Origin: Posidoniimonas polymericola
Lineage (GTDB): Bacteria; Planctomycetota; Planctomycetia; Pirellulales; Lacipirellulaceae
Assembly (NCBI RefSeq): GCF_007859935.1
Contig: NZ_SJPO01000002.1
Location: 496,001 to 560,000 of the forward strand
DNA length: 64,000 nucleotides
Direction: 5' to 3'
Below the pieces are notes generated by a model. The model was given only the letters and a program-made list of their open reading frames with translations. It was not told the DNA's origin and searched no databases. The number at the start of each line of letters is the position of its first letter. Position 1 is the stretch's first letter. Positions 34,624 through 63,975 of this stretch are shown here, piece by piece. The translations under genes were made by a program, and so were the position numbers.

Positions 34624-34697
<74 letters not shown>

Positions 34698-36123: not shown

Positions 36124-36160
36124 GCGACAGATCTCGGCAGAGTTGGCGGCTAGTTAATGG

Positions 36161-40713: not shown

Positions 40714-40781
40714 CAGATTCGCGTGGAGGGGGGGGGGCGCCAGCGGGCAGGGGGAGGACGCGCCGCGGGAGGGGATGGTTC

Positions 40782-41764: not shown

Positions 41765-41800
41765 CTGCTCAAACCGCTTGCAGGAGAGTGGAGGCGAGGG

Positions 41801-42832: not shown

Positions 42833-42860
42833 AGGTGTGGGCTCGATTTTGCAGTCCGGC

Positions 42861-44081: not shown

Positions 44082-44103
44082 GATCGTTCGTCTCACGGAA
44101 GGG

Positions 44104-48241: not shown

Positions 48242-49741
48242 TCAAGCGGTCTGCGTCCTCGGCGGCACGGCCAGGGAGATCAGGTAGCCGGTGAAGAAGG
48301 TTGTCGTGGCTCCAATCAGCGAGAACCATGGCCAGCTCACGTCGGCGGCAAACTTCGCGTAGCAGCAGGCCGCCAGCCCGCACGCGATGCCAATCAAGCC
48401 GGCGGTCTCGCTGGCGCGGCCCAGGGCGGCGCCAAGCAAGTAGATGCCCAGCACGAGCCCGGTCGAGAAGCCGGCGATCCCGAGCACTGCGCTGATTACC
48501 GTGCTGTCGGGGCTCAGGGCATAGTAGGCTCCGACGGCGACCACCGTCTGCACCGCGGCGAAGGCGAACGTAGCGACCTTTGCGCCCAGCAGCAGGCCGG
48601 CGTCACTCATGTCGGGGATCAGGCGTTTGCCCAGGTCGTTCACCAGCACGCCGGCCGAGGCGCTCAGCGAACTCGACAGCGTCGACATCGAGGCCGCCAG
48701 CACCGACGCGATCACCAGCCCGCGGAGGCCGATCCCGAGCCGGTGCACCACGAAGCCGATCAGCGCCTGATCCCCCTTCGCGATCTCGTACCCGAGGGCG
48801 CCTTGCGAGTGCCAGTAGGCCAGCGCGATGCCGATCGCCAGGAACAGCAGGAACTGCAACGCCACGACGGGCCCGCTGAGGCCGACCGCCCAGCTCGCCT
48901 CACGGCGTGACCTAGAGCACAAGTAACGCTGGATCATCATGTGGTCGGCGCCGTGCGACGCCATCGTCAGCGTGGCGCCGCCGATCAGGCCGGACCAGAA
49001 GGTGATTGACTTCGTGAACAGCGAGGTGTCGAAGTCCAGCAGCCGCAGGCGGCCGGTCTCTTCGGCGAACTGCCACATGGCCTCCGAACCGCCGGGCGCG
49101 TCGCGGACCAGCAGCACCATCACCACCGCGGCGCCGATCATGTACATCGCGAACTGCAGGCAGTCGTTCAGCACGACCGACGCTACGCCCCCCACGCCGG
49201 AGTAGATGGCCGTGCAGACCGCCATCGCCACGACGCAGGTAGTGAAGTCGAAGCCGGTCGCCGCGTTGATCAGCCAACCCGTCAGCAGCAGCCGCAGCCC
49301 GTCGGCCAGGTTGCGCATCACCAGGAACAGCACCGACACCACGCTCCTCACGTTGGGGCCGAACGAGTTCTGCAGGATCTCGTACGCCGTGAGGTACGCG
49401 CCCGAGAAGAAGATCGGCATCACCAGCCAAGTCAGAATCAGGCGGCCAGCAATGTAGCCGAGGGTGAGCTGCAAGAAGGTCAGGTTGCCCCCCTCCACGA
49501 ACGACGTGCCGGGCAGGCTCAGGAAGGTGACGGTGCTGGTCTCGGTGGCGACGATTGAAAACAGCAGCATCCACCAGGTGAGCTGACGACCGCCGACGAG
49601 AAACCCCTCGGCAGTCTTCGGCGCCCGCGACGCAAACAGGCCAATCGCCGTGCTGCCTATGAGGTAGCACACGATGATCACCCAGTCGATCAGCGGGATT
49701 GTCGAGGAAGGCAAACGGCTACGACCCGGCAGGGCCGACAT
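48242..49741 (-). CDS. Sodium:solute symporter (SSS family)
   Basis: Starting at ATG 49741 the 499-aa protein has about 13 membrane helices, beginning TIPLIDWVIIVCYLIGSTAIGLFASR. LTWWMLLFSIVATETSTVTF, LILTWLVMPIFFSGAYLTAY, and SVLAASMSTLSSSLSASAGV (the S-T-S-S-x-x-S sodium-site pattern of helix 8) are typical. SSS proteins of this type import sugars, sialic acids, amino acids or peptides with sodium. It heads the peptidoglycan-peptide operon, so it may import amino acids, dipeptides or a sugar released by the enzymes downstream. An earlier ATG (49843) would add basic, unstructured residues overlapping the divergent promoter. The substrate is unknown. Confidence 0.88.
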   Translation of the reverse strand: MSALPGRSRLPSSTIPLIDWVIIVCYLIGSTAIGLFASRAPKTAEGFLVGGRQLTWWMLLFSIVATETSTVTFLSLPGTSFVEGGNLTFLQLTLGYIAGRLILTWLVMPIFFSGAYLTAYEILQNSFGPNVRSVVSVLFLVMRNLADGLRLLLTGWLINAATGFDFTTCVVAMAVCTAIYSGVGGVASVVLNDCLQFAMYMIGAAVVMVLLVRDAPGGSEAMWQFAEETGRLRLLDFDTSLFTKSITFWSGLIGGATLTMASHGADHMMIQRYLCSRSRREASWAVGLSGPVVALQFLLFLAIGIALAYWHSQGALGYEIAKGDQALIGFVVHRLGIGLRGLVIASVLAASMSTLSSSLSASAGVLVNDLGKRLIPDMSDAGLLLGAKVATFAFAAVQTVVAVGAYYALSPDSTVISAVLGIAGFSTGLVLGIYLLGAALGRASETAGLIGIACGLAACCYAKFAADVSWPWFSLIGATTTFFTGYLISLAVPPRTQTA

Positions 49742-49818
49742 CTCGGGGAGGGGCAGGCGGCAAGAGCGAGCACGGCAGCGGCGTAGCACGGCCGACTCCG
49801 AGCCCCGCCTTACTGCGG

Positions 49819-49847
49819 AATATAATCTTGGTATTTTGAACAATCCA
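49819..49847 (-). promoter_or_regulatory. Promoter candidate of the symporter operon
   Basis: On the minus strand TGGATT (49842-49847, weak -35), a 17-base spacer and TATATT (49819-49824, 5 of 6 to the -10) precede the symporter start by about 77 bases. A perfect TATAAT (49821-49826) is also present on the plus strand toward the kinase gene but lacks a good -35. The two overlap, as expected for a shared divergent control region. Confidence 0.4.
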
Positions 49848-49928
49848 CCGTACGGACGACGCGCATCATTCTCTTACATTTGCGCACCCCCGTCCGTGCC
49901 CCACGTGACCCCATCGGCGCCCACCAAA

Positions 49929-50855
49929 GTGAACGACCAATCACCGCTGCTGTTGGGAGTCGATGCGGGGGGGACCAAGTCACGGGCGCTGCTCGCGACC
50001 GCAGGCCCGGGCGATCGGTACTGCATCCTAGGAGTCGGCGAAGCGGGGCCTGGCAACCCAATGAGCCATGGTCTGCCAAACGCCGCTCGTTCGATCGTCG
50101 AGGCGATGCGCGCTGCGGTGGACGGACTCAACCGGCAGGTCGAGGTTGCCGTGGTTGCCGCGGCGGGGGCCGCCGATGACACGCTCCGGCTCGCCCTGCA
50201 GAAAACACTCGCAGCTGCAGGGATTGCCAAGATCTGCAGGGTTGTCCCCGACTACGAGCCGTTCTTTTCTCTGGCCAAGCCGCCAGTGGTGGGAGTCATC
50301 TCGGGGACCGGCTCGGTGGCGTTCAGCCGAGCCGGCGACCACGACGTCTTGCGGGTCGGTGGCTGGGGCTACCTGCTGGGCGATGAAGGCAGCGGCTATG
50401 CGATTGGCCGTCGTGCGTTGCAGCAGACGCTCGGCGAGATTGAGGCCGACCGGCCGCGGTCTGCCGTCGCGGTGGCCTGCTGCAGCACGCTCGACGCCGA
50501 CAGCCGGGCCGGGCTCTTGGCAGCGGTTTACCAGGCTGCCGACCAGCGGTCGCGGATTGCGAGCATCGCACGGGGGGTGATTGGCCTGGCCCCGCAAGAC
50601 GCTGACGCCTCGGCCTTGCTCTGCGAAGAGGCCACATCGCTGAGCAAAGTGGTCGGCCGAGCGGTCAACGGAGCCAAGTTCGCCGCTGGGGGGTACACGC
50701 TGAGCCTCGGAGGCGGAGTGCTGGCCGGCAGCCAATTCTTCCGCAATGCCCTCTGTGATTGCCTGGCGAGCGACGGACTGACGCCCGCCCGTATAATTGT
50801 TGTGCGCGATCCCGCGATTGGCTGTGTCGCCGCAGCGCACGCGTCCGTGTGCTAA
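49929..50855 (+). CDS. BadF/BadG-type ATPase, probable N-acetylhexosamine kinase
   Basis: From GTG 49929 the protein has 308 aa. GTG 49896 is an alternative; a longer frame overlaps the divergent promoter. It has the ASKHA sugar-kinase features: LLLGVDAGGTKSRALLA (phosphate-1 loop), VVGVISGTGSVAFSRA (phosphate-2), GGWGYLLGDEGSGYAIGRRAL, and LSLGGGVLAGSQFF (adenosine motif). The GDEGSGYAIG block is shared with N-acetylglucosamine kinase (NAGK) and MurK, which phosphorylate GlcNAc and MurNAc. Adjacent to NagZ/AmpG-type genes, it probably phosphorylates amino-sugars salvaged from peptidoglycan. GlcNAc versus MurNAc specificity cannot be seen. A regulator gene follows on the same strand. Confidence 0.88.
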   Translation: MNDQSPLLLGVDAGGTKSRALLATAGPGDRYCILGVGEAGPGNPMSHGLPNAARSIVEAMRAAVDGLNRQVEVAVVAAAGAADDTLRLALQKTLAAAGIAKICRVVPDYEPFFSLAKPPVVGVISGTGSVAFSRAGDHDVLRVGGWGYLLGDEGSGYAIGRRALQQTLGEIEADRPRSAVAVACCSTLDADSRAGLLAAVYQAADQRSRIASIARGVIGLAPQDADASALLCEEATSLSKVVGRAVNGAKFAAGGYTLSLGGGVLAGSQFFRNALCDCLASDGLTPARIIVVRDPAIGCVAAAHASVC

Positions 50856-51062: not shown

Positions 51063-52310
51063 ATGGATTCTGCTAAGAGCCAGAACGCCTCCGAGTCCAA
51101 CGGCGAACCGTCGCGATCGCCGACGATGTTCAGGAACATGCAGCGCGTCGCCGTGCTGATCGAGACCGATACCTCGTCGGGCTGCGCAGTGATTCGCGGC
51201 ATCGCCGACTACGCCGAGCGCCATGGCGGCTGGCACCTGCTGCTCGACCCCCGCGACCACGAGCACCGCTCGGCACTGCCAGATGGGTGGACGGGGCACG
51301 GCATTATTGCCCGGCTCAGCAGTCGCCAGCAGATCGACCAGGTTCGCGCCAGCGGCGCGCCGGTGGTCAATGTCGATGACATCTACGAGGACCTGGCCGA
51401 GTTCCCGATGGTGATCACGGACGAGGCAGCGCTGGCGGAGCAGTCGCTCACGCACCTGCTCGACCGAGGGTTCCAGCAGTTCGGCTACTTTGCCCCGCCG
51501 AGCACGCAGTACTCCAAGAAGCGCGGCCAGGCGTTCGTCAAAGCGGTCGAGGAGCACGGTTACGTCTGCCGCGAGTACAAGCCGGGCTACCGCCCTGGCC
51601 GCAAGATTGGCTGGGTAGAGCAGCAGCGTCGCGTCTCGCGGTGGCTGGCCTCGCTGCCACAGCCGATCGCCATCCTGGCGATCGACGCCGCCCACGGCCG
51701 TCAGCTCGCCGAGATCTGCCACCTGAACGCGTTCCGCGTGCCGGACGACATCGCGATCCTGGCGGGCGACCCCAACGACGTGTTCTGCGAGGTCTCGACC
51801 CCGCCGCTCTCGCATGTGAAGGTCGCGAGTGAGAAGATCGGCTTCACCGCCGCCGAGATGCTCGATTCACTGATCTCGGGCGGCCAGCCGCCCGAATCGG
51901 CCAAGCGTATTTCCCCGCACGGCATAGCCGCGCGGCAGTCAACCGACCTGTTGGCCATCGACGACCCGATGATTGTCGACGCGCTGCGGTTCATCCGGGC
52001 GCACGCCCACCGCGGGATTGCGGTGGTTGATATCCTTCGGGAGATCCCGATCTCGCGTCGGGGCCTGGAGATCCAGTTCCGCAACTACCTGGGCCGCTCG
52101 CCCGCCAAGGAGATTCGGCGGGTGCAACTGGAGCGGGGGCGGGAGCTGCTGGCGAAGCGGGAGCTGTCGATCAGCGAGGTCGCCCACGCGTGCGGTTTCG
52201 CCAATGCCACCCGGTTTGGCGTGGCGTTCAAGAAGGAAGTGAACACGACCCCGCTGGCCTACCGGCGTGAATTGCTGGCCGGCCAGAAGGACCGCGACCC
52301 CGGTTATTGA
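51063..52310 (+). CDS. XylR-type transcriptional regulator (LacI-like sensor plus AraC HTH)
   Basis: This 415-aa regulator has a periplasmic-binding-protein-like sensor domain (QRVAVLIETDTSSGCAVIRG through about residue 290) and a C-terminal AraC helix-turn-helix pair (ILREIPISRRGLEIQFRNYL; ISEVAHACGFANATRFGVAF). This is the domain order of the xylose regulator XylR, but many planctomycete members sense other sugars. The neighbours suggest a murein sugar or muropeptide as effector, which is inference. A perfect TTGACA lies at 51012-51017, about 45 bases upstream, with no convincing -10. No ribosome site is evident. Confidence 0.9.
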   Translation: MDSAKSQNASESNGEPSRSPTMFRNMQRVAVLIETDTSSGCAVIRGIADYAERHGGWHLLLDPRDHEHRSALPDGWTGHGIIARLSSRQQIDQVRASGAPVVNVDDIYEDLAEFPMVITDEAALAEQSLTHLLDRGFQQFGYFAPPSTQYSKKRGQAFVKAVEEHGYVCREYKPGYRPGRKIGWVEQQRRVSRWLASLPQPIAILAIDAAHGRQLAEICHLNAFRVPDDIAILAGDPNDVFCEVSTPPLSHVKVASEKIGFTAAEMLDSLISGGQPPESAKRISPHGIAARQSTDLLAIDDPMIVDALRFIRAHAHRGIAVVDILREIPISRRGLEIQFRNYLGRSPAKEIRRVQLERGRELLAKRELSISEVAHACGFANATRFGVAFKKEVNTTPLAYRRELLAGQKDRDPGY

Positions 52311-52481: not shown

Positions 52482-53531
52482 TTGGCCACCTCAGAAGAAT
52501 CCATCGTCCTGCTGACGGACGGCGCGGCGTCGCTCCTTGCCGCCAAGACCGCGACGAGCATCCTCCGCTACCGCGGCGAGAATGTGGTCGCGGTGCTCGA
52601 CCGCTCGCGGGCTGGTCAAACCACCGACCAGGCGTTCGGCGTCGGCGGCGACACGCCGATTGTCGCCGCGCTGAGCGATGTGCCAGACGCCACCACCCTC
52701 ACGATCGGTATCGCCCCCCCGGGTGGCCGTGTTCCGGAGGACTGGCGGGCGATCCTGATCGAGGCCGCCGGTCGCGGCATGAAGCTGGTCTCTGGTTTGC
52801 ACGACTTCCTTTCGAACGACCCAGAGATCGCCGCAGCCGCCGAGAAGTCAGGCTCTGTAATTTACGACGTGCGTCGCAACAACGAACGCGACCTCGCCAA
52901 GGCCAAGGACCTCCGTGACGACTGCCTGCGGATCCTGACCGTTGGGCAGGACTGCTCGATCGGCAAGATGCTCACGGCGCTCGAGCTTATCAAGGGCCTC
53001 ACCGCCCGCGACGTCGACGCCAAGTTCATCGCGACTGGCCAGACCGGCATCATGATCGAGGGCGACGGCTGCCCGGTTGACTGTGTGGTGTCGGACTTTG
53101 TGAACGGCGCGGTCGAGAAGCAGATCCTCGCCAACCAGCACCACGAGGTGCTGATCGTGGAAGGCCAGGCGACGATCTCTCACCCTGCGTATTCGTGCGT
53201 CTCCGCGGGTTTGCTCCACGGCTCGACCCCGCATGGGATGATCATGGTCTACGAAGTCGGCCGCGAGAACGTGCACGGCGTCGAGCATGTCCCGCTGCAG
53301 CCGCTGCCCAAACTGATCGAGGCCCACGAGATGCTCGCCGGTCTGCGGATGCCCTCCAAGGTAATCGGCATCGCGATGAACAGCCGCCGCGTAAGTGAAG
53401 AGGAAGCGGCCGTTGAGCGGGAGCGGATGCGGGGCGAACTCGGCCTGCCAATCGCCGACCCGCTCCGCCACGGCGTCGACGAACTGGTCGACGCGATCGA
53501 GAAACTCCGTGCCGAGGTGAAGTCGCGATGA
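52482..53531 (+). CDS. dgcN: DUF1611 protein, DgcN-type D-glutamate N-acetyltransferase
   Basis: The 349-aa product (TTG start) shows the DUF1611 pattern. The N-terminal domain ends SGLHDFLSNDPEIA. The C-terminal P-loop-like domain begins RILTVGQDCSIGKMLTALEL and continues with FIATGQTGIMIEGDGCPVDC and LIVEGQATISHPAYSCVSAG. DUF1611 members paired with an enolase-superfamily racemase have been described as D-glutamate N-acetyltransferases (DgcN) in D-Glu catabolism. Exactly this pairing is present: the next gene, overlapping by four bases, encodes such an enzyme. The reaction would acetylate D-Glu freed from peptidoglycan. No signal peptide, so it is cytoplasmic. Confidence 0.85.
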   Translation: MATSEESIVLLTDGAASLLAAKTATSILRYRGENVVAVLDRSRAGQTTDQAFGVGGDTPIVAALSDVPDATTLTIGIAPPGGRVPEDWRAILIEAAGRGMKLVSGLHDFLSNDPEIAAAAEKSGSVIYDVRRNNERDLAKAKDLRDDCLRILTVGQDCSIGKMLTALELIKGLTARDVDAKFIATGQTGIMIEGDGCPVDCVVSDFVNGAVEKQILANQHHEVLIVEGQATISHPAYSCVSAGLLHGSTPHGMIMVYEVGRENVHGVEHVPLQPLPKLIEAHEMLAGLRMPSKVIGIAMNSRRVSEEEAAVERERMRGELGLPIADPLRHGVDELVDAIEKLRAEVKSR

Positions 53532-54589
53532 CCAAACTGCTCACCCGCGGATTCGACCTCCCGCTGAAGCACGTCTTCCGCATCTCGCGCAGCGCGGTCT
53601 CGGTGCAGCCGACCATGATCGTGCAGGCCGAACACGAAGGCCGTTACGGCTACGGCGAGGCGACCGAGAACGACTACTACGAAGCGACTATCGAGAACAT
53701 CACGGCGATGGTCGCCAAGGCCCAGCCGCTGCTCGACGACTGGACGCCCGAGGACCCTGCCGAGCTGCTCCGCCGCGTCGGCGCCGAGATCGGCTTCGAC
53801 GGCAGCGCCGACGGCGGCGTCCGCGGCTCGTCGTTCGCATTGTGCGCGCTCGACTGCGCCCTGCACGACCTGTGGGGCAAGATCGCCGGCAAGCCGGTCG
53901 GCGAACTGTGGGGGCTCGACCAGTCCCAGGGGCCCAACTCGAACTTCACTATCGGCATCGACACCATCCCCGTGATGGTCGAGAAGCTCGCCGAGGAGCC
54001 CGGCTGGCCGGTCTACAAAATCAAGCTCGGCACGCCCGAGGACATCGAGATCATCCGCGAGCTCCGCCGCCACACCGACGCCCGCTTCCGCGTCGACGCG
54101 AACTGCGGCTGGACGCCGGAGAAGACGGTCGAGCTGTCGGGCGAGCTTAAGGAGCTGGGGGTCGAGTTCATCGAACAACCGCTGCCGGCCGACAACCGCG
54201 AGGGCATGAAGAAGGTGTACGCCGAGTCCGCCCTGCCGGTCATCGCCGACGAGAGCTGCGTCTGCGAGGCGGACGTCGCGCGGTGCGCCGGGTTGTTCCA
54301 CGGCGTGAACGTGAAACTCGTGAAGTGCGGCGGCCTGGCGCCGGCCCGGCGGATGCTGGCCGAGGCGCGCGGGCTCGGCATGAAGACCATGGTCGGCTGC
54401 ATGACCGAGTCGTCGGTCGGCATCTCGGCGATCGCCCAACTGCTGCCGCTCTTGGACTACGTCGACATGGACGGCGCCGTGCTGATCGCCAAGGACATCG
54501 CGACCGGCGCGCGGCTCGAGAAGGGGCGTTGTGAGCTTCCCTCCCTGCCCGGGTTGGGCACGGAGCTGCTCGACGGCCCTCTGCAATAG
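53528..54589 (+). CDS. L-Ala-D/L-Glu epimerase or N-acetyl-D-glutamate racemase (enolase superfamily)
   Basis: The 353-aa enzyme has the muconate-lactonizing subgroup catalytic set. This comprises Lys164 and Lys166 in VYKIKLG, metal ligands Asp190 (RVDANCGW), Glu216 (FIEQPL) and Asp241 (IADESC), Lys266 at the end of the sixth strand, and DYVDMDGA at the C-terminus. The D-x-D there is the AEE (L-Ala-D/L-Glu epimerase) specificity feature. DgcA, described as an N-acetyl-D-Glu racemase, belongs to the same group. Either activity fits murein salvage: turning D-Glu (free acetylated, or in a dipeptide) into an L-form. It overlaps the DUF1611 gene by four bases (ATGA). Confidence 0.9.
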   Translation: MTKLLTRGFDLPLKHVFRISRSAVSVQPTMIVQAEHEGRYGYGEATENDYYEATIENITAMVAKAQPLLDDWTPEDPAELLRRVGAEIGFDGSADGGVRGSSFALCALDCALHDLWGKIAGKPVGELWGLDQSQGPNSNFTIGIDTIPVMVEKLAEEPGWPVYKIKLGTPEDIEIIRELRRHTDARFRVDANCGWTPEKTVELSGELKELGVEFIEQPLPADNREGMKKVYAESALPVIADESCVCEADVARCAGLFHGVNVKLVKCGGLAPARRMLAEARGLGMKTMVGCMTESSVGISAIAQLLPLLDYVDMDGAVLIAKDIATGARLEKGRCELPSLPGLGTELLDGPLQ

Positions 54590-54644: not shown

Positions 54645-56648
54645 ATGAAGGCATCCCTCCGCGCAGCAATCCTCCCCGTGGCGGCGGCCATGCTCTTGCT
54701 CAGCCGCGGGCAAGCGGCCGCGGCCGACTTTAATTCGTCTCTGGTGGACCTCCTCGAGAGCCACCGGGGCACGGTCTCCGCAGCGGCCAAGCACCTCCCC
54801 TCGGGCGAGGAGTTCAGCTTCCAGGCAGACCGACCGATGCCTACCGCGAGCCTGATCAAGCTGCCGATCCTGGCGACCGCCTACCACGCCGCGGCAGAGG
54901 GAAAGGTCGACCTCGACGCGATGGTCACGCTCAAGGAGGAGGACAAGGTCCCCGGCTCGGGCGTGCTGACGGCCAACTTCTCGGCCGGGCTCAAGATGCC
55001 GCTGCACGACGCGATCCGGCTGATGATCGCGTTCTCGGACAACACCGCGACCAACCTCGTAATCGATCAAATCGGGCTGCCGGCCACCAACGAGTACATG
55101 GACCAGCTCGGCCTGAACAACACCCGGCTGCACGCAAAGGTGTTCCGCCGCGACACGTCGATCGCCCCTGAGCGGAGTAGGGAGTTCGGCCTCGGCAGCA
55201 CCTCGGCCAGCGAGATGCTCAAGCTGCTCGAGCAGATTGAACGTGGTGAGCTGATCAGCAAACAGGCGAGCAAGTCGATCTACGAGCACCTGCTGGCATG
55301 CGAGTCGCGGAGCAAGGTCCCCCGCTACCTGCCCGAGGAAACCCGGGTCGCGCACAAAACCGGCTCGGTCTCGGCCGTGCGGTGCGACGCCGGCATCATC
55401 GAGTCGCCCAAGGGGCCCATCGCCTTCTGTATCCTCACCGGCGACAACGAGGACCACAGCTGGGGCGACGAGAACGAGGCCGAGCTGCTGGCCGCCGAAT
55501 TCGGCAAGGCGATCTACGCGCACTGGGGCCTCGACGAGGACGCCGCGACCGCGGTGGTCGCCCGGGTGCTCAAGGTCGGCGCCGACGGCGAGCTGGTCGA
55601 GTCGCTGCAGCGGATGCTCAACGCGCGCCTGAAGCCGTCGCCCGATCTAGGGGTCGACGGCGACTTCGGCCCCAACACCGAACGCGCGGTGATCAAGTTC
55701 CAGAAACAGGCAGGCGTCGAGGCGACCGGCGAGGTCGGACCCGACACTTGGCGGGCGCTCGGACCGCTGCTGACCGAGGACCAGCCGACCCCCGACCCGG
55801 CGGTGGTGATGTCGAAGGTCCGCAAGAAGCGTGCGGCAGACAAGCTAACCGGCCCCCCGGTGGTGACCTGCAAGGCGTACGCGATCGCCGACGCCAAGAT
55901 CGGCGAGGTGCTGTGGGGCTACAACGACTCGCTGCAGCGCGACCCGGCCAGCGTCACCAAGATTATGACCGCCTACCTGGTTTGCCAGCTGGCCGAAGAG
56001 GACCCGGCTGTGCTTGAAGAGGTGCTGACCTTCTCCGAACGGGCCGACAATACTTCCGGCTCGACCTCCGACCTCAACGCCGGTGAGCGGGTCAAGGTCG
56101 GCGACGCCCTGTACGGCCTGATGCTCCCTTCGGGCAACGACATGTCGGTCGCCCTGGCCGAGCACTTCGGCAAGCGGCTGGCCGAAGACGAGGGGACGGC
56201 GCCGTACGACGCCTTCATCGCGGCGATGAATCAGGCGGCCGCCGATCTTGGCATGTCGGGGACAGGCTACCGGAACCCCCACGGGCTGACCGCCGACGGG
56301 CACCACACCACCGCCGCGGATATGGTCAAGCTGGCCCGCGCGGCGCTCGCCCTGCCAAAGTTCCGCGAAGTGGTGAAGACCCCACTGTACGCGATCACGG
56401 TCGACTCGGTCGACGGTTATCAACGCAACGTGGTGTGGAAGAACACCGACCAGCTGCTCGGCATCGAGGGCTTCTACGGCGTGAAGACCGGCACCACCGG
56501 ACCGGCCGGCGCGTGCCTGGTTTCGGCGGGCAAGCGGGGCGACTCGGACCTGATCGTCGTGGTGCTCGGCTCGACATCGGGCGACGCGCGGTACGTCGAT
56601 GCTCGCAACCTGTACCGCTGGGCGTGGGCCCAACTGCTGGCTGAGTAG
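54645..56648 (+). CDS. Double-headed serine hydrolase: class-A-like beta-lactamase domain, PG-binding domain, S11 D,D-carboxypeptidase
   Basis: ATG 54645 has AGAAGG nine bases upstream and gives 667 aa with a signal peptide. Domain 1 (about 30-300) has the penicillin-recognising triad Ser69-x-x-Lys72 (TASLIKLP), Ser131-Asp-Asn133 (SDNTATN) and Lys238-Thr-Gly (HKTGSV). A class-A beta-lactamase E-x-x-L-N loop is not obvious. Domain 2 (about 305-380) is a peptidoglycan-binding domain (LGVDGDFGPNTERAVIKFQK). Domain 3 (about 405-660) is a peptidase S11 with Ser436-x-x-Lys439, Ser496-Gly-Asn and Lys614-Thr-Gly. Two SxxK enzymes in one chain are unusual. It may trim terminal D-Ala of murein. It lies 55 bases after the epimerase gene. 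Confidence 0.93.
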   Translation: MKASLRAAILPVAAAMLLLSRGQAAAADFNSSLVDLLESHRGTVSAAAKHLPSGEEFSFQADRPMPTASLIKLPILATAYHAAAEGKVDLDAMVTLKEEDKVPGSGVLTANFSAGLKMPLHDAIRLMIAFSDNTATNLVIDQIGLPATNEYMDQLGLNNTRLHAKVFRRDTSIAPERSREFGLGSTSASEMLKLLEQIERGELISKQASKSIYEHLLACESRSKVPRYLPEETRVAHKTGSVSAVRCDAGIIESPKGPIAFCILTGDNEDHSWGDENEAELLAAEFGKAIYAHWGLDEDAATAVVARVLKVGADGELVESLQRMLNARLKPSPDLGVDGDFGPNTERAVIKFQKQAGVEATGEVGPDTWRALGPLLTEDQPTPDPAVVMSKVRKKRAADKLTGPPVVTCKAYAIADAKIGEVLWGYNDSLQRDPASVTKIMTAYLVCQLAEEDPAVLEEVLTFSERADNTSGSTSDLNAGERVKVGDALYGLMLPSGNDMSVALAEHFGKRLAEDEGTAPYDAFIAAMNQAAADLGMSGTGYRNPHGLTADGHHTTAADMVKLARAALALPKFREVVKTPLYAITVDSVDGYQRNVVWKNTDQLLGIEGFYGVKTGTTGPAGACLVSAGKRGDSDLIVVVLGSTSGDARYVDARNLYRWAWAQLLAE

Positions 56649-56664: not shown

Positions 56665-56681
56665 GCGGCGCTAGGCGCCGC
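56665..56681. terminator. Possible bidirectional terminator hairpin
   Basis: GCGGCGC-TAG-GCGCCGC forms a perfect 7-bp stem between the convergent serine hydrolase and NagZ genes; its arm includes the last bases of the NagZ stop. There is no T-tract on either strand, so termination is only a suggestion. Confidence 0.28.
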
Positions 56682-58221
56682 CGCACAACTTCCTCGCCAG
56701 CGCCTGCTGCGACGCCGGCACGTCGCTGAAGGTGCAGAGCTTCGGGCGGTCGGCCGGGAAGTCGGCGAGGATTGTCGGCACGCCGAGCGACGCGACAATC
56801 GTCTTGGTGTCCGCCGCCAGCCGCTCGGCGAGCCGACGTTGATCGTCGGTCATGCCGAAGGCGTGCCACGCGGCCGGTTTGGCAATAACTGCTAGCAGCA
56901 CCTGATCGCTGTCGGCCGCAGCGGCCACCGCGGCGTCGGCCGCTACCTGGTCGATCTCCGGGCCGAACTCGAAGTATTGGGCGCCGGGCAAGAGCTGACC
57001 GATGGCGTCCGCCAAGGGCTGCTTGGCCGGGTCGGTCGGCAGGTTGAACGGCTTGGTCAGCACCACGGTCGTCGACTTCTTAGGGTCGAGCGTTGGCGGC
57101 GGGCCATCACCGAAGATGCGGATGGCGCCCTCGGCGGCCGCGGCGGCAAACACGCGGTTGGCGTCACGCTGCTCGGCGCCGATCTCGGGAGAGAACGGCG
57201 TCACGCCGGCGACCCGTTCCTTAAGCCGCATCACGCGTCCGAGCGCCTCGTCGACGCGTTCGAGCGGCAGGTCGCCTCGTTCGACCATGGCGGACATCTC
57301 GCGGACGGTCGCGACCGGGTGGGCCAGGTCGAGCAGCAGGTCGACGCCGGCCGTCAGGGCGGCGGCGGCCATCTCGGCCTCGCTCTCGTACCGACCGGTC
57401 GCGCCGGCCATCAGTAGGCTGTCGGAGCAGACCGCGCCCTCGAAACCGAGCTCGCCGCGGAGAAGGTCCGTCAGGATCGCCTTGGAGAACGTAGCCGGCT
57501 CGCCCGAGGGGTCGAGCGCCGGGTAGCAGACGTGGGCCGACATGATCAGCGGCACGCCCGCGGCAATCGCCGCACGGAACGGCACGAGCTCCTGCCGGTG
57601 GAGCACCTCCGCCGGATGGTCGACCGAGGGGAGCTCGGCGTGCGAGTCCTGGCTGGTGTCGCCGTGGCCGGGGAAGTGCTTGGCGGCGGCGAGCGCGCCG
57701 GCCGAGTTCATCGCGTCGACCACGGTTGCGACCAACTCGGCGACCGCGGCGGGTTCCTCGCCGTACGCGCGGGTGGCGATGATTGGGTTCTTTGGGTTCG
57801 TGTTGGCGTCGGCGACCGGGGCGAACAGGATCTGCACGCCGGCCTGCAGCGCCTCCTCGGCGGTGATCTCGATCGCCCGCCGCAGGTCGGCCTGCGTCTG
57901 CTCGCCGAGCTCCGCGAACGCCCTGGCGTGCGGGAACACGGTCAGCCCCGCCAGTTGCTGCCCGGCGCCACGCTCGAGGTCTGCCGAGACCAACAGCGGC
58001 GTCTTCACCTTTGCCTGCAGCCGTCCGAGCGACGCCCGGACCTCGGGCCAGACGCCGTTGAACAGCAGCAGTCCGCCGACCGGGCAATCTTCGAGCAGCG
58101 CGGCGACGCGCTCTTCGTCGTCCGAAGCAGTGACGATGGGCGGCAGGTTGGAGCCCATGCGGACAAAGACCAGCTGGGCGATTTTCTCTTCGAGCGATAG
58201 CTGCTCGACGGTGGTAGTCAC
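56671..58221 (-). CDS. nagZ: Beta-N-acetylglucosaminidase NagZ (GH3)
   Basis: The 516-aa protein has the NagZ signature AKHFPGHGDTSQDSH (residues 180-194). The Asp-His dyad Asp192/His194 is the general acid/base unique to NagZ-type GH3 enzymes. The nucleophile is Asp267 in VCSDSLLM. It cleaves GlcNAc from anhydroMurNAc- or MurNAc-peptides. There is no signal peptide, so it is cytoplasmic, as in Gram-negative recycling. It is longer than the E. coli enzyme (about 340 aa) by an extra C-terminal domain, like the Bacillus type. It ends an operon with a GHL10 glycosidase and an AmpG-like permease. Confidence 0.93.
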   Translation of the reverse strand: MTTTVEQLSLEEKIAQLVFVRMGSNLPPIVTASDDEERVAALLEDCPVGGLLLFNGVWPEVRASLGRLQAKVKTPLLVSADLERGAGQQLAGLTVFPHARAFAELGEQTQADLRRAIEITAEEALQAGVQILFAPVADANTNPKNPIIATRAYGEEPAAVAELVATVVDAMNSAGALAAAKHFPGHGDTSQDSHAELPSVDHPAEVLHRQELVPFRAAIAAGVPLIMSAHVCYPALDPSGEPATFSKAILTDLLRGELGFEGAVCSDSLLMAGATGRYESEAEMAAAALTAGVDLLLDLAHPVATVREMSAMVERGDLPLERVDEALGRVMRLKERVAGVTPFSPEIGAEQRDANRVFAAAAAEGAIRIFGDGPPPTLDPKKSTTVVLTKPFNLPTDPAKQPLADAIGQLLPGAQYFEFGPEIDQVAADAAVAAAADSDQVLLAVIAKPAAWHAFGMTDDQRRLAERLAADTKTIVASLGVPTILADFPADRPKLCTFSDVPASQQALARKLCGGA

Positions 58222-58284: not shown

Positions 58285-59619
58285 CTAGTCGTCGAGTGTA
58301 CGGCGGGCGAGCTCGGTCATCACAAAGCTCGGCACGGTCGCGATGAGGATCCACCAGAAGAAGCCGACGTACCCGCTCTGTTCCTGCACCTGGCCGGAGA
58401 TCATGCCGGGCAGCATGATGCCGAGCGCCATGAAGCCGGTGCAGAGCGCGTAGTGGGCGGTCTGGTGAGGCCCTTTTGCAATCTTCAGCATGTACATCAG
58501 GTAGGCGGCGAAGCCAAAGCCGTAGCCGAACTGCTCGACCGAAACCGCCAGGCCGACCAGCCACATGCTCTCCGGCTGCGTGGTCGCCAGCACCAGGTAC
58601 AGCAGGTTCGGCGCGTTGATCGCCAGTGCCATCGGCAGGAACCAACGCTTGAGTCCGTGCTTGGCAATCGCAAAGCCGCCGAGGATCCCGCCCAGCGTCA
58701 GGCAGGCGAGGCCGAACGTGCCGTAGATCACGGCGACGCTCTCCTCACTCAAATGCAGCCCGCCAGCGGCCCGCTCGTCGAACATAAACGGCTGGGCGAT
58801 CCGTCCCAGCTGCGCCTCGGAGAACCTGTAGAGCAGCAGGAAGCCGATGGCAATCACCATGCCCGGCTTCTCGAAGAACGAGACCACCGTGCTGACGAGT
58901 TCGTCCAATAGATTCGCAACGCCGGCGCCGTCGTCGCGGGTCTTGACCTGTGGAGGGAGACTCCACGCGTGGTACGCCGCCAGCACTACATACACTGCCG
59001 CGGCGAGGCCGAAGGTCCACGCCCAAGCCTGCGCCGCGGGCAGGCGGTCGCTCAGGATGCCGGCGGTCGCCAGCAGCACCGCCGAGACGAAGAACTTGGC
59101 GCCGCGGTAGAACGTGCTGCGGATGCCTACGAACCACGCCTGGCTCTTCTCGGGCAGCGCCGACATGTAGTAGCCGTCGGCGGCGATGTCGTGTGTCGCG
59201 GAGCCAATCGCCAGAATCCACAAGAAGCAGAGCGAGGCAAAGAAGAACCCGGCGGTCGGCAGAACGAGGGCGACCCCCAGGAAGCCGGCGGCCAGCGCGA
59301 CCTGGGTCCCGATGATCCAGCGGCGCTGCGTGCCGAGCACGTCGACTAGCGGGCTCCAAAGCGGCTTGAGCACCCACGGCAGGTACAGCATGCTGGTGTA
59401 GAACGCCATCTCGCTGTTGCCGATCCCGAGCAGCACGTACATCGATCCGGCCAGGGTCATCACGACCTCGTTCGGCACGCCCTCGGCGAAGTAGAGCGTT
59501 GGGATCCACCACCACGCGCGGCCGGCGCCCTCGGGCGGCGATGCCCCGCGCGGCGTCTCGTCCGCGGCAGGGGGCAGAGGAGCCAATTCCTCGGCGTCGG
59601 TTGTCGTCGGGTCCGCCAT
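58285..59619 (-). CDS. AmpG-like muropeptide permease (MFS)
   Basis: ATG 59619, with AGGAA six bases upstream, gives 444 aa and about 12-14 helices. WWWIPTLYFAEGVPNEVVMT and YTSMLYLPWVLKPLWSPLVD are the characteristic AmpG/PAT-family opening (fp-P-x-x-Y-f-x-e-G-x-P; the L-P-W-x-x-K-x-x-W-x-P block). ILAIGSATHDIAADGYYMSA (D-x-a-x-D-a) also fits. AmpG carries GlcNAc-anhydroMurNAc (peptides) into the cytoplasm. Its position between a GHL10 glycosidase and NagZ supports that role. Related PAT transporters carry other things, so substrate is likely but unproven. Confidence 0.86.
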   Translation of the reverse strand: MADPTTTDAEELAPLPPAADETPRGASPPEGAGRAWWWIPTLYFAEGVPNEVVMTLAGSMYVLLGIGNSEMAFYTSMLYLPWVLKPLWSPLVDVLGTQRRWIIGTQVALAAGFLGVALVLPTAGFFFASLCFLWILAIGSATHDIAADGYYMSALPEKSQAWFVGIRSTFYRGAKFFVSAVLLATAGILSDRLPAAQAWAWTFGLAAAVYVVLAAYHAWSLPPQVKTRDDGAGVANLLDELVSTVVSFFEKPGMVIAIGFLLLYRFSEAQLGRIAQPFMFDERAAGGLHLSEESVAVIYGTFGLACLTLGGILGGFAIAKHGLKRWFLPMALAINAPNLLYLVLATTQPESMWLVGLAVSVEQFGYGFGFAAYLMYMLKIAKGPHQTAHYALCTGFMALGIMLPGMISGQVQEQSGYVGFFWWILIATVPSFVMTELARRTLDD

Positions 59620-59657
59620 CAGGTTCCTGTGATTCGGCTGCTGGTTCGGCTGCTCGT

Positions 59658-61166
59658 TCAGGGCGCCGCCACGCGAGCCGGCTCGCTGCGGCGTCCGTAC
59701 CGGTCGATCGCGGTCACGAAGGCCTCGCCGGCCGACTCGTCGGCTTTGTCGGCCGCGCCCGGCAGCAGTCGCGTGGTCCAGCCCTCCGTGGTGTGGGTTT
59801 GCACCGCGTACAGCCAAACATCATCGACGTTTGTCGAGTTGATCACCAGCCGGCCCTCCTCGCGGCGGACGATTGGCCTAGCTGGGGGGGCGGACTCGGT
59901 CAGCCAACCGCACACCGGCGGCAGCGCCGGCTCGGCGTAGGGGCCGTCGGCCAACGCGTCCGCGACGCCGTCGTAGTTCTTGGCGAGCGCCTTCATGCTG
60001 AAATGCACGTTGCCGCCCGCGTGCGCGAACGCCTGGGTCAGCCGCACCTGCTGCACGATCTCCGCGGCGGACCAGCCGTCGCCTTCCGGTTTGGAACGGA
60101 CCTTCGAGGTGAACAGGCCGGGCCAGATCGGGCGGCCGTGGGGGTTTTGCCGGGTCCACCACTCGAGCAGGATTGGGTAGCTCTGGCCGCTAGAACGCAC
60201 CGGCCAGTAGAGCTGCGGGGTGAAGTAGTCGACCCAGCCCTCCTCGAGCCACAGCTTCGAGTCGGCGTACAGCTTCTCGTACGCGTCGAACCCAACCACC
60301 GACTCTGGGTGGCCGGGCCGCCAGATACCAAACGGGCTGATGCCGAACAACACGTGGGGCTTCTCGGCCTTGATCGCTTGATAGACCCGCTCGACAAACT
60401 GGTTAATGCTCTGCCGCCGCCAGTCGTCACGGCTCAGGCGGTCGCCACTGGGAGTCGAGGCGACGTATTTTTCCCAGCTGCGGTCGTCGGGGAACGGGAC
60501 CTCGGCGTCTTGGCCATCGTCGGCCTTGGCGGTGATCGGGTAGGGGTAGAAGTAGTCGTCGAAGTGCACGCCATCGATGTCGTAGCGGCGGACGACGTCC
60601 ATGATCACGTCGAGCGAATGCCGCGACGCGTCGTCGTCGCTCGGGTCGAGCCACTGGTAGGCGCCGTACTCGACGACCGAGCCCGGCAGGCGGCGGCTGA
60701 TGTGGTCTGCAGAGAGCTCTCCCTTGTAGCTCGGGTGCGACGCCCGGTACGGGTTGAACCAGGCGTGCAGCTGCAGCCCACGGCGGTGCGCCTCGCGGAC
60801 GGCGAACTCGAGCGGGTCGTAGCCGGGGCTCGTCGCCTGGCCCATGACGCCCGTCAGGTAGGGCGACCACGGCTCCAGTTCCGACGAATAAAACGCGTCG
60901 CACGCCGGGCGGACCTGCAGCACGATGGCGTTCAGGTTCAGCTCAACCGCCTTGTCGAGCAGGCCGAGCAGCTCCCGCTGCTGATCCTCGGTCGACAGGC
61001 CGGGCTTGCTGGGCCAGTCGATGTTGGCGACCGTGGCGATCCATGCGGCGCGGAACTCGCTCTGCAGTTCCGGCGGGCCGTCGGCGCCCGCACGAGTTGC
61101 GCCGCACATGAGTAGGCAGGCGGCGAAGAAACGAAGCGGTCTTGCGTACGATTGGTAGCGTTCCAT
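59658..61166 (-). CDS. GHL10/DUF187 family glycoside hydrolase-like protein, exported
   Basis: From ATG 61166 the protein has 502 aa with a signal peptide ending near AGA (residue about 28). The mature part has the GHL10 (DUF187, YngK-like) blocks. These are FRAAWIATVANIDWPSKPGL, NAIVLQVRPACDAFYSSELE, HAWFNPYRASHP, IDGVHFDDYFYPYP (conserved D-D of the catalytic face), ISPFGIWRPGHPES and VDYFTPQLYWPV. A C-terminal fibronectin-like segment of 90 aa follows. Enzymes of this group act on polysaccharides and have been linked to cell-wall glycans; I cannot state the bond. With AmpG and NagZ directly downstream (38 and 63 bases), a role in releasing murein sugars is likely. It heads this operon. Confidence 0.85.
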   Translation of the reverse strand: MERYQSYARPLRFFAACLLMCGATRAGADGPPELQSEFRAAWIATVANIDWPSKPGLSTEDQQRELLGLLDKAVELNLNAIVLQVRPACDAFYSSELEPWSPYLTGVMGQATSPGYDPLEFAVREAHRRGLQLHAWFNPYRASHPSYKGELSADHISRRLPGSVVEYGAYQWLDPSDDDASRHSLDVIMDVVRRYDIDGVHFDDYFYPYPITAKADDGQDAEVPFPDDRSWEKYVASTPSGDRLSRDDWRRQSINQFVERVYQAIKAEKPHVLFGISPFGIWRPGHPESVVGFDAYEKLYADSKLWLEEGWVDYFTPQLYWPVRSSGQSYPILLEWWTRQNPHGRPIWPGLFTSKVRSKPEGDGWSAAEIVQQVRLTQAFAHAGGNVHFSMKALAKNYDGVADALADGPYAEPALPPVCGWLTESAPPARPIVRREEGRLVINSTNVDDVWLYAVQTHTTEGWTTRLLPGAADKADESAGEAFVTAIDRYGRRSEPARVAAP

Positions 61167-61449
61167 AGCCTCTACAATACCCGCTGCGGGCTTCGAGCGG
61201 GCGGGGGGAATGCGTAATTTCGCCTCGCCGATGCGCAGCGGCCTTGGCCGACCGTGCGCCCGCTGCTGGTCGATGTGAGGAGTGCGTTGGGGCGCAAAAA
61301 AAGCGTCTTGGCTTCCTGCCAAGACGCTGTGTCGATGCCCAACTTTCTATCCGCCCGGTCCCCGGACGGAGTCGCTCGTGGGCCCGGCTCTTCCCACTGT
61401 TCCACCTGTGGTAAGACTAGCCACCTCTGCCACGGCTAGAATTCGCTCC
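61167..61449. other. Intergenic region before the GHL10 operon
   Basis: It holds the intrinsic terminator of the PEP-CTERM gene (61296-61328) and, downstream on the minus strand, the likely promoter of the GHL10-AmpG-NagZ operon. Only a loose TATTGT -10 near the GHL10 start is visible. No additional gene is evident. Confidence 0.5.
61296..61328 (-). terminator. Intrinsic terminator after the PEP-CTERM gene
   Basis: On the minus strand AGCGTCTTGGC and GCCAAGACGCT form a perfect 11-bp stem with a five-base loop (61302-61328), followed directly by a T-run (61296-61301). It separates the two PEP-CTERM genes from the GHL10-AmpG-NagZ operon. Confidence 0.85.
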
Positions 61450-62217
61450 TTAACGGCGGCGGCGTACGCCCACCAGACCGATGACCGACAACAGACCCAT
61501 CGCGAGCGAAGCGGGCTCAGGGACCAGCTCCAGCGAGATGTTGTCAAAGTTTGCGCCGCCGCCGGCCGAGCCCAAATCGGACGGGCCGCCGAGGCGGATG
61601 ATGTCGAAGCCGAGGTCGTTCGGGGCAATGGGCACGGACGCGGTCGCGTTGATCGTGCCGTCGGAGTTGAGGTCGAGCATGAAGTCAATGTTCGTGGCAG
61701 TCACTTCGGCGGTAAAGCGGTGCCAGCCCTCGACAGGCTCGTTCTCGATCGCCGCGCCGCCGTCGTCAACCAGGCCGCTGAAGGCCACCCAGCTCGGGTC
61801 GCCCGGGCCAAAGAGGATCGCGCGGTAGGCGTAATGGTTGGGCGAGTTGTACATGCCCATTTCGATGATGTTGGCGCCCGCTGCTTCACGCAGGCCGGCG
61901 GAGGTCCGCTTGTTAGCGGAGGCGCCGTCGTCGTAGATGTCGGCGGAGAACACGAGCTTCTCGCCGGGCCCTGGGGCGATCTCGGCGAAGCTGAGAGAGT
62001 TGGTGTTGGCGCCGCTGAACGAGGCGCCCGTTCCCGGATGGTAGAGCGACTGTGAGGGGTTGCCCAGCACGGTGTCGAGCGTGCCGTCCCCGAGCGACCA
62101 GACACCGCCGAGGGCGGTTGTGTCGGCGTAGGAATCGAAGTCCTCGTCCACGATGACGGCGCCGTTGGCGTAGCAGGCCGGCAGCAACATCGCTGCCATG
62201 CAGAGGATTTTCTTCAT
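61450..62217 (-). CDS. PEP-CTERM sorting domain protein
   Basis: The 255-aa protein has a signal peptide (MKKILCMAAMLLPACYANGA) and a C-terminal exosortase signal: VPEPASLAMGLLSVIGLVGVRRRR. This is the P-E-P motif, a short hydrophobic helix and an arginine cluster. The body is a jelly-roll, LamG/concanavalin-like domain (DEDFDSYADTTAL, WHRFTAEVTATNIDFMLDL, and a closing GGGANFDNISLELV). Such proteins are exported and processed by exosortase; the only exosortase in this window is at 5.5-7.2 kb. GGAG ten bases upstream of the ATG supports the start. A strong terminator follows. The binding target is unknown. Confidence 0.9.
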   Translation of the reverse strand: MKKILCMAAMLLPACYANGAVIVDEDFDSYADTTALGGVWSLGDGTLDTVLGNPSQSLYHPGTGASFSGANTNSLSFAEIAPGPGEKLVFSADIYDDGASANKRTSAGLREAAGANIIEMGMYNSPNHYAYRAILFGPGDPSWVAFSGLVDDGGAAIENEPVEGWHRFTAEVTATNIDFMLDLNSDGTINATASVPIAPNDLGFDIIRLGGPSDLGSAGGGANFDNISLELVPEPASLAMGLLSVIGLVGVRRRR

Positions 62218-62355: not shown

Positions 62356-63975
62356 TCAGGACTTCACGCATCTCGCTCGCCGCCCAATCCAGCGGCACAA
62401 CGCAACCCCAAGGAGGCCCGCCAAGCTGCTCGGTTCTGGGGCTGAGTCCGACTGAGGCGACACAGCCGCGCCGCTGTCGTAGTTGTTGCGCCAAATCGCA
62501 AGGTCGAGTTCGTCGACCACGCCGTCATCGTTGCCGTCGGCGGCGATCCTGCCGCCGACCGCGCCGTTGAGGCTGCGCCAGGTCGTGTAGTCGGCGGCGT
62601 CGACCACGCCGTCGCGGTTGTAGTCGCCCGAGAACCGCGGCTCGAACTCGGCAGAAGGATCCCAGAACACCGTGTCGAGGTAGACCTGGGCGTCCGACGA
62701 GCCCTTGATCTGGATCGAGTCGACCGTGACCAAATCGCCGTCCACGACGCCGTTGCCGCCGGACCAGGCGTCCCAGTCTTCGTCCCGATCGATGAACCAA
62801 CGGTACTGACGCCACTGGTTGTCGGCAATCACTTCCTTGAACACGCCCCGCTCGCCCGTGTCGGGATCGTCCAACGCGATCGAGACCGTCAGGCCCGGGT
62901 CGTCGGTCTTGAGCCAGAAGCCGACCGCGCCGTCGGCCTCGAACCTCAGGTTGGCCACGCCGGCGGCCACGTTCTGCGAGCCGCCGAAGTCGCTGAACCG
63001 GGCCGCGGAGACGTGCCGCAGCAGGAACTCCTCGCCGGAAGACTCGTCGTAGGTGATGTCGATCAACTGCGAGTGGGTCCCCTCGTGGGCCGTGTCGGCC
63101 GACCGCTCGGCCGTGCTGCCGGCGATATTGGCGGTCGTGCTGCCGGAGTAGGTCGGGTCGCGGTTGAAGTAGCCCTCGTGCCCCTGGTAGGTGCGTCGCG
63201 AGCGGTCGGCGTAGTTATCGAAGCTGGTCAGCACCTTCCGGCCGTAGGTCACCGACGTGCCGGCTGTGCTCGCCGTGCGGAGCTGGATGTCGGCGCCGTA
63301 GTAGTACTTCAGGATGTCGACATACGACACACTGTTGTCCGACAAGAAGTCGGCGCCGTTCTGGCTCTTGGCGCCGCGGTTGGGCCAGTTGGGGTTGGTC
63401 CGCGTTCCCTGAAAGCCGAGCGGGGTGCCGGTGTTCGTCCCGCCCGACAGGCCGTTCTCGTACGGGTAGGTGACCCACTTCTGGGTATTGGTCGGGTCGG
63501 AGTCGCCCGCGTTCGGTACGGCGCTCGGGTTGGCGGGATCGAACGGACCGGTGGGAATAGCGCCCGCCACGTAGAAGGCCGCGATCAGGACGTCGCCGCC
63601 GCCGAAGTTCTCGATGGAGAGGATCTCGCCCTCGGTGTCACGGGCGGCGGCGTAGTGGATCGCCTGGGGCGACCCCGAGCAGCTGTAGACCTGGTCGACC
63701 GTGCCGTCGGCGATGGATCCGGAGCGGTCCATCTTGTAGTAGGCGTAAGTCCGGGCGGCCACCGCCTGGGCCTTGAGCGCCTCGTAACTGGCGCCGCCGT
63801 TCTCACAGAGCACGCAGTTAGGGACGTAATCCGTGTCGGTCGGCACACTGCCCGAGCCGATGACGTTGATGTTGGGCAACGCGGTGAACTGGGCGACCGC
63901 GACCGCAGAAAAAAGCGTCGCCGCCATGACGGCGGCGACGCGTGCTAGTTGCCTAACTGCCGCAGACAAGCTCAT
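62356..63975 (-). CDS. SpoIID/LytB-domain protein with dockerin and PEP-CTERM tail
   Basis: The 539-aa protein begins MSLSAAVRQLARVAAVMAAT with a signal peptide. Residues about 45-100 carry the SpoIID/LytB core: a Glu in CENGGASYEALKAQAVAART is placed like the catalytic Glu of SpoIID, and AARTYAYYKM is diagnostic. SpoIID is a lytic transglycosylase of denuded murein. A carbohydrate-binding-like beta domain (about 320-430) follows. Next come two dockerin-type calcium repeats (DYNRDGVVDAADYTTW, DGNDDGVVDELDLAIW) and a PEP-CTERM end (PEPSSLAGLLGVALCRW, then basic residues). It precedes the other PEP-CTERM gene by 138 bases. The ATG is 25 bases from the window edge. Confidence 0.85.
   Translation of the reverse strand: MSLSAAVRQLARVAAVMAATLFSAVAVAQFTALPNINVIGSGSVPTDTDYVPNCVLCENGGASYEALKAQAVAARTYAYYKMDRSGSIADGTVDQVYSCSGSPQAIHYAAARDTEGEILSIENFGGGDVLIAAFYVAGAIPTGPFDPANPSAVPNAGDSDPTNTQKWVTYPYENGLSGGTNTGTPLGFQGTRTNPNWPNRGAKSQNGADFLSDNSVSYVDILKYYYGADIQLRTASTAGTSVTYGRKVLTSFDNYADRSRRTYQGHEGYFNRDPTYSGSTTANIAGSTAERSADTAHEGTHSQLIDITYDESSGEEFLLRHVSAARFSDFGGSQNVAAGVANLRFEADGAVGFWLKTDDPGLTVSIALDDPDTGERGVFKEVIADNQWRQYRWFIDRDEDWDAWSGGNGVVDGDLVTVDSIQIKGSSDAQVYLDTVFWDPSAEFEPRFSGDYNRDGVVDAADYTTWRSLNGAVGGRIAADGNDDGVVDELDLAIWRNNYDSGAAVSPQSDSAPEPSSLAGLLGVALCRWIGRRARCVKS

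Follow-up and report, generated by a model that had tools for sequence, protein, structure and literature searches.

What use would a bacterium from a family poor in murein genes have for an exported protein with two penicillin-recognising catalytic heads? The question is raised by a 64,000-nucleotide stretch of the Posidoniimonas polymericola genome (NCBI RefSeq assembly GCF_007859935.1, contig NZ_SJPO01000002.1, positions 496,001 to 560,000; hereafter the window), in which the gene at 54645-56648 on the forward strand joins a class-A-like head (head 1), a PG_binding_1 domain and a Peptidase_S11 head (head 2). The favoured answer, held with a probability of about 0.57, is that this fusion is an exported double D,D-peptidase which is tethered to murein and feeds murein catabolism, mostly on foreign substrate.

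The two-headed protein is one real gene product. Its 667-codon open reading frame (ORF) has no internal stop and yields 667 amino acids, and a Pfam domain search finds all three domains over cut-off (Table 1), bearing out the class-A-like, PG_binding_1 and S11 architecture proposed in the initial annotation. The two SxxK/SxN/KTG sets read there in a single polypeptide are also confirmed: head 1 carries Ser69/Lys72, Ser131-Asp132-Asn133 and Lys238, with Ser69 as the nucleophile, and head 2 carries Ser436/Lys439, Ser496-Gly-Asn and Lys614-Thr-Gly, with Ser436 as the nucleophile. Both sets are intact in 29 aligned full-length relatives (own protein included) and in 67/67 head-1 and 66/66 head-2 domains and are thus no chance motifs; these domain counts omit duplicates (L116, L174-L176, L178, L179), L124, L125 and rows covering less than 70 % of a head, and those for head 1 also omit two paralogues used as outgroup. 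The case of two separate genes, which had been allowed for, did not arise, and an assembly or frameshift artefact is rejected: single ORFs hold both heads, with matches spanning the two in 22 of 39 close relatives (own genome included); some of these genomes are recorded as a single contig (G011, G013, G015, G017 and G018).

The gene is present in a single copy and encodes the sole S11 and sole PF13354 protein found in the P. polymericola genome (E <= 1e-5); a second PF13354 row of the genome scan falls within the S11 head of the same protein. Pfam reports neither a PBP5 C-terminal domain nor a signalling domain in it. An AlphaFold2 model of the mature protein, built from 39 sequences, has a mean predicted local distance difference test score of 90.5 and a predicted template modelling score of 0.58, so the domains are confident and their mutual placement is unsure; residues 298-306 form a low-confidence stretch. 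Of the 43 spanning sequences, 39 went into the alignment and the model; L020, L066, L137 and L138 were left out.

Head 1 combines the fold and the Ser-x-x-Lys/SDN/KTG motifs of class A beta-lactamases with an aliphatic residue where their deacylating Glu166 would lie. Ser69, Lys72, Ser131, Asp132, Asn133, Lys238 and Gly240 are invariant among the 67 domains; at position 239, where KTG has its T, 58 domains carry T, seven G and two S. The aligned Glu166 position, set by a sequence alignment that is gap-free from the SDN side, is Val166 here; across the set it is V in 63, T in two, S in one, I in one and Glu in none. Its aligned counterparts are Leu158 in PBP-A, Val166 in LRA-5 and Glu in a true class A enzyme (L180, a reference scoring 259 bits). 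Against the NCBIfam class A model NF033103 (bla_class_A), head 1 reaches 109 bits with a cut-off of 200, and this model has no match in the own genome at E <= 1e-30. With Val, and in no relative Glu, at the aligned position, head 1 is hardly a beta-lactamase; judged from its sequence, such an identity is very unlikely. The nearest folds are 4ewf (Z 35.6, root-mean-square deviation (rmsd) 1.8, 256 residues aligned), LRA-5 (8eo5; Z 35.5, 1.9, 260), 6v4w (Z 35.1, 2.1, 260) and PBP-A (2j7v; Z 34.3, 2.0, 256); further class A beta-lactamases follow at Z 32-34.

Two points on head 1 weigh against this reading. By their titles, 4ewf and 6v4w are beta-lactamases, and entries no more than 1 Z apart count as tied; fold rank alone thus cannot separate a D,D-peptidase from a beta-lactamase. 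In addition, 61 of the 67 domains have E or D at the position of Glu176, ten residues beyond Val166, and phmmer pairs Glu176 with position 158 of the L158E PBP-A entry; it might act as a base.

The closest functional parallel is PBP-A of Thermosynechococcus (Tll2115; 2j7v; PMC11189452), which shares with head 1 the class A fold, Ser-x-x-Lys, SDN, KTG and an aliphatic residue in place of Glu166, whereas its solved chain comprises one head and not two. A class A fold without Glu166 is one mark of a PBP-A-like D,D-peptidase, and head 1 shows it. PBP-A acts as a D,D-carboxypeptidase and endopeptidase; according to its authors, a key contrast to class A beta-lactamases lies in the omega-loop Glu (PMC11189452). 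PBP-A Glu96 is held responsible for the preference for amidated D-isoglutamate (PMC11189452); this residue, numbered by counting from Ser61, aligns with Gly104 of head 1, which is invariant in 39 fusions, so the specificity of head 1 should differ from that of PBP-A. LRA-5 and 4ewf of Sphaerobacter, with Val and Met, respectively, at the 166 position, are single-domain structures with 24-29 % identity to head 1.

Head 2 is an S11 peptidase by its Pfam match and by SxxK, SGN and KTG, invariant in its 66 domains. In fold it comes closest to the Streptomyces K15 D,D-transpeptidase (Z 36.5, rmsd 1.7, 253 aligned), followed by PBP5 and PBP6 types. K15 and DacA/PBP5 share its fold and catalytic residues; by contrast, the S11 head here lies C-terminal to another head and PG_binding_1. 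Given the peptidoglycan-breakdown cluster around the gene (see below), wall material, not antibiotics, is the most likely target of digestion.

Whose wall this would be is suggested by the murein-synthesis genes of the host. No PF00905 transpeptidase was found in the own genome and no separate one in the 24 genomes of the host family (f1). Among the 39 relatives six have a PF00905 match, inside the fusion gene in G015 and G022, weak in G032 and strong in G024, G033 and G035. MurA (TIGR01072) is over cut-off in none of the 24 f1 genomes, own included; of the 39 relatives only G024, G033 and G035 have it, while G032 has pieces below cut-off. The f1 matches of 50-90 bits to the MurA model are most likely AroA. 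Judged by curated models, the own genome has neither the MurA nor the PF00905 gene expected of a host that recycles its own wall. A search for Mur ligases turned up only a MurE-like protein (137 bits against a cut-off of 373), FolC and PgsB there. In five f1 stretches that were read (L192, at 4277-7085, and L197-L200), a MurG-like gene lies beside the MurE-like one; there, a local search with E. coli mraY and ddlB gave no match, and murF and murC matched only the MurE-like ORF. In G035, separate murE, murF, mraY, murG, murC and ddl ORFs are clustered.

By gene content f1 is thus likely murein-less. Pirellulales, Isosphaerales and Gemmatales are reported to have lost most of the genes murA, C, D, F, G, J and ftsW (PMC12283558), a pattern from which the MurG-like gene of f1 departs, and murA-G are dispensable in P. 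limnophila (PMC10632474). Because neither MurA nor penicillin-binding transpeptidases were found in the host, the fusion most likely acts on murein of foreign or environmental origin that serves as food. The fusion and MurA also do not co-occur among the 39 relatives (MurA in 0/22 fusion genomes and, with G032 counted, in 4/17 others; Fisher p = 0.029), a result that is confounded by kinship and carries little weight. As a separate observation, the own genome encodes a poly-gamma-glutamate synthase, PgsB (L194:4692-5927; 447 bits, over cut-off).

The gene neighbourhood is the second line of evidence: the fusion lies in a region of about 23 kb of peptidoglycan-breakdown genes (Table 1). The DgcN-like and DgcA-like genes overlap by 4 bp, and the fusion gene starts 55 bp past the latter; the two show the adjacency of the DgcN/DgcA D-glutamate pathway and score below its curated cut-offs. 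DapF and GGT pass curated NCBIfam cut-offs. The initial annotation had pointed to AmpG and NagZ as a link to beta-lactams in other bacteria: both neighbours are present, within a larger peptidoglycan-breakdown set, and no AmpC-type circuit was seen.

Table 1. The two-headed gene, its domains and its neighbours in the window (bit scores with model cut-offs where available)
Feature	Position	Strand	Remarks
DapF, diaminopimelate epimerase	40928-41800	-	287.7 bits, over cut-off 114.65
S66 L,D-carboxypeptidase, LdcA-like	41801-42892	-	177.6 bits, cut-off 378
Membrane dipeptidase, peptidase M19	42861-44111	-	
Golvesin_C + fn3 + Amidase_3 protein	44104-46440 (start approximate)	-	Amidase_3 weak: 31.1 bits, cut-off 27
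Gamma-glutamyltransferase (GGT)	46503-48236	-	450 bits, over cut-off 357.85
Sodium:solute symporter	48242-49696	-	165.6 bits, cut-off 184
BadF-type kinase, N-acetylglucosamine-kinase-like	49674-50855 (start codon unsure)	+	87.3 bits, cut-off 370
XylR/AraC-type regulator, periplasmic-binding-like domain	51063-52310	+	
DgcN-like DUF1611 protein	52482-53531	+	274.9 bits, cut-off 480
DgcA-like N-acyl-D-Glu racemase/dipeptide epimerase, enolase superfamily	53528-54589	+	214.6 bits, cut-off 400
Two-headed protein	54645-56648	+	Signal peptide, PF13354 head, PG_binding_1, S11 head
Putative Sec-type signal peptide, about residues 1-26	54645-54722	+	Read by eye; predicted cleavage site
Head 1, Beta-lactamase2 PF13354, residues 47-265	54783-55439	+	Pfam 227.5 bits, cut-off 22
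PG_binding_1, residues 315-372	55587-55760	+	Pfam 56.8 bits, cut-off 23
Head 2, Peptidase_S11, residues 403-643	55851-56573	+	Pfam 177.7 bits, cut-off 27.6
GH3, NagZ-like beta-N-acetylhexosaminidase	56671-58221	-	176.8 bits, cut-off 207
AmpG-like muropeptide transporter of the major facilitator superfamily	58285-59622 (start approximate)	-	163.8 bits, cut-off 350
GHL10 glycosyl hydrolase-like protein	59658-61172	-	
SpoIID-domain protein	62356-63975	-	54.1 bits, cut-off 83.3

The setting recurs within the family. In 19 other f1 loci of at most 20 kb each (one of them, L122, a half gene), the genes near the fusion include DgcN in 16, DgcA in 15 (both together in 15), M19 in 13, S66 in nine, NagZ, AmpG, GGT and the regulator in eight each, GHL10 in seven, the Amidase_3 protein in four, the symporter in three, and the kinase, DapF and SpoIID in two each; with so few occurrences, the membership of SpoIID in the region is uncertain. 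The M19 dipeptidase is the closest genomic partner of the fusion: in 11 of the 19 loci it comes directly after the fusion, in the same orientation and at most about 310 bp from the alignment ends. In f15, where the S11 head has split off, its fusion to M19 in G370 and G476 speaks for the same partnership. None of the neighbour genes occurs in seven control stretches (90 kb) from five f1 genomes.

These gene contents fit a chain from polymer to central metabolism in which the fusion is the D,D-cutting step. For this chain we infer all activities, the division of labour between the heads, the location, the order of steps and the foreign substrate. PG_binding_1 would hold the protein on murein, which agrees with the earlier suggestion, itself deduced from sequence, of a protein that may attach to murein and use two sites to trim its peptides. 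Head 1 would act as a PBP-A-type D,D-peptidase with a class A fold, either a carboxy- or an endopeptidase, and head 2 as an S11 D,D-carboxypeptidase or endopeptidase; jointly they would remove terminal D-Ala and open cross-links between D-Ala and meso-diaminopimelate. The amidase may then release stem peptides, while GHL10, SpoIID and NagZ cleave the glycan; GHL10 is presumably the family of DigH. E. coli DigH is a hydrolase specific for denuded glycans (PMC12288456). Products could be imported by AmpG, S66 would take off D-Ala, M19 and GGT would split small peptides, DgcN/DgcA would convert D-Glu and DapF would convert diaminopimelic acid (DAP). Planctomycetia may matter for D-amino-acid recycling (PMC12363236).

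Several points weigh against a protein that feeds on foreign murein. The names DgcN, DgcA, NagZ, AmpG and S66, as well as SpoIID and the kinase, rest on scores below curated cut-offs and so denote kinship, not proven function. M19, S66 and DapF lie 10-14 kb from the fusion in the window and on the opposite strand. In 59 further loci, which come from other families, from half genes and from two paralogues and in many cases cover only 12 kb, the only neighbours found are M19 (six), the kinase (three), the regulator (two) and the symporter (two), and all six M19 genes are in f15, adjoining the S11 head or fused to it. As the fusion is present in f8, f15, f18 and f19, where few neighbours recur, it is older than this gene setting. 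The absence of synthesis genes has limits of its own: six f1 genomes are less than 90 % complete, MraY, FtsW/RodA, YkuD, GT51 and Ddl lay outside the genome-wide search, and the synthesis-gene tests did not cover f18 and f19. A MurG-like gene is present in 21 of the 24 f1 genomes and a MurE-like gene is also retained, the own-genome copies scoring below cut-off. N-acetylmuramic acid (MurNAc) has been detected in three and DAP in four planctomycetes, with Rhodopirellula baltica in both sets (PMC4432640), and Planctomyces has been classed as building an intermediate wall (PMC8406291).

Part of this evidence favours the first alternative, that f1 still produces some murein by unorthodox means, a wall of its own that its sole S11/PF13354 enzyme would trim and recycle. 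Such self-recycling is unlikely without being negligible, given MurNAc and DAP in other planctomycetes, R. baltica included (PMC4432640), the retained MurG-like and MurE-like genes and the presence of the fusion in f18 and f19. It is countered by the lack of MurA over cut-off and of a separate PF00905 transpeptidase in the 24 f1 genomes and by the narrow set of Mur-ligase matches in the own genome. AmpG, NagZ and LdcA, which are classical recycling proteins, also fit recycling; the amidase, dipeptidase, DapF and D-Glu genes, by contrast, seem to exceed it and to point toward catabolism.

A further reading, decidedly speculative, combines both: a lineage without MurA and transpeptidases would live partly on the murein of others and turn second-hand muropeptides into a scanty wall polymer again. 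In this scheme the two-headed enzyme would cut the wall to pieces and the MurE-like/MurG-like pair would reassemble them. If true, it would reconcile MurNAc and DAP in such planctomycetes with their missing mur genes. It is improbable that just one head cleaves and the other serves as a non-hydrolytic module for murein recognition: the families of both heads recognise the D-Ala-D-Ala end, so that one could be redundant for catalysis, and each head is found alone in some relatives, but Ser, Lys, SxN and Lys are invariant in both, as expected of working enzymes. Scarcely credible, finally, is a beta-lactamase or beta-lactam sensor joined to a D,D-peptidase, as the initial annotation had entertained for head 1: the class A fold, the 109-bit match, the titles of 4ewf and 6v4w and the acidic residue at 176 are outweighed by the missing Glu at the aligned 166 position and the subthreshold score, Glu176 remaining a caveat to this rejection, and neither a PF00905 target in the genome nor, by Pfam, a signalling domain in the protein was found.

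In the samples searched, the fusion occurs in part of its phylum. Both heads fall in one match in 22 of the 39 close relatives, 20 of them among the 24 f1 genomes; of the remaining four f1 genomes, G016 has residues 301-664 only, and G003, G008 (66 % complete) and G009 (83 % complete) have no match. The phylum sample gave both heads in one match in 8/392 genomes, or 9/392 with G311, whose single ORF matches in two pieces; all these genomes share one class. In the class sample at least 69 of 397 genomes have the fusion among the matches listed, in families f1, f8, f15, f18 and f19, and several further matches end at contig ends. By these counts for class and phylum, the worry that the fusion might simply be common is half justified. 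In a contig scan beyond the phylum, all 29 loci returned matched in S11 or PG-binding alone; as the scan returned no planctomycete, it cannot count as a measure of absence. No place covering 80 % of the gene was found in 72,556 plasmid records.

Split forms also occur: head 1 alone, head 1 with PG_binding_1 (L104), PG_binding_1 with S11 (L142) and S11 alone (L108). The head-1 tree (69 rows) needs six label changes for its 45 fusion rows, at least three forced by starred branches, and the head-2 tree (66 S11 rows, a quick method without bootstrap) needs seven, at least three of them forced. One clean origin of the fusion is rejected, since both trees need several label changes. The f15 split forms (L105, L154) nest among fusions, and the f19 stand-alone head 1 branches early. 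We propose, as the probable course, an old fusion that later split again in places, as in f15. The f19 stand-alone head 1 adjoins tyrosine-phosphatase-like and thioesterase genes, which are uninformative on function.

Several related arrangements were seen alongside. In two f15 genomes (G370 and G476), S11 and an M19 membrane dipeptidase share one ORF (L106:8430-10574 and L155:4607-6721, both on the reverse strand; Pfam in L106, tblastn in both), and head 1 is a separate gene. In G490 (L164:4666-6549), a short head-1 remnant lies directly upstream of a PG_binding_1-S11 ORF and looks like a decaying fusion. Several f1 relatives (L025-L030) have a second, distant PF13354 protein with 26-33 % identity to head 1, which was not found in the own genome. 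In the window, the C-terminal tails of a small secreted protein (61450-62217) and of the SpoIID protein look PEP-CTERM-like. A phage-type integrase lies beside a DUF4832/DUF4874 protein (33225-36153), next to resistance-nodulation-division efflux genes (36164-40779) that adjoin the breakdown region.

The single parts are of known kinds. Comparison systems are the ykfABCD-dpp murein-peptide operon of Bacillus subtilis and the Gram-negative AmpG/NagZ/LdcA recycling route, which jointly share with the region an S66 peptidase, an enolase-superfamily racemase/epimerase, muropeptide transport and a NagZ-type glucosaminidase. To these the region adds a two-headed D,D-peptidase, M19, DapF, GGT, an amidase, GHL10 and a DgcN-like protein, and its family has no detectable MurA. 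The literature searched, with partial coverage, held no description of the two-headed architecture or of a planctomycete locus for peptidoglycan use; the architecture, the status of the fusion as sole S11 and PF13354 protein, and its setting among murein-breakdown genes of a MurA-lacking family appear undescribed.

The finding also calls for caution: class-A-like planctomycete homologues should not be counted as beta-lactamases by homology, given that head 1 lacks the deacylating Glu at the aligned position. A homology screen has counted such homologues as beta-lactamases (PMC4432640), and proteins of the head-1 type may be among them. For the family itself, a guess about antibiotic sensing has become a testable claim about feeding, in which a murein-gene-poor lineage would own a compact kit for dismantling murein that includes a double D,D-peptidase. 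This is relevant to the debate on peptidoglycan synthesis in such planctomycetes: the MurNAc and DAP of their cells could be eaten, not made.

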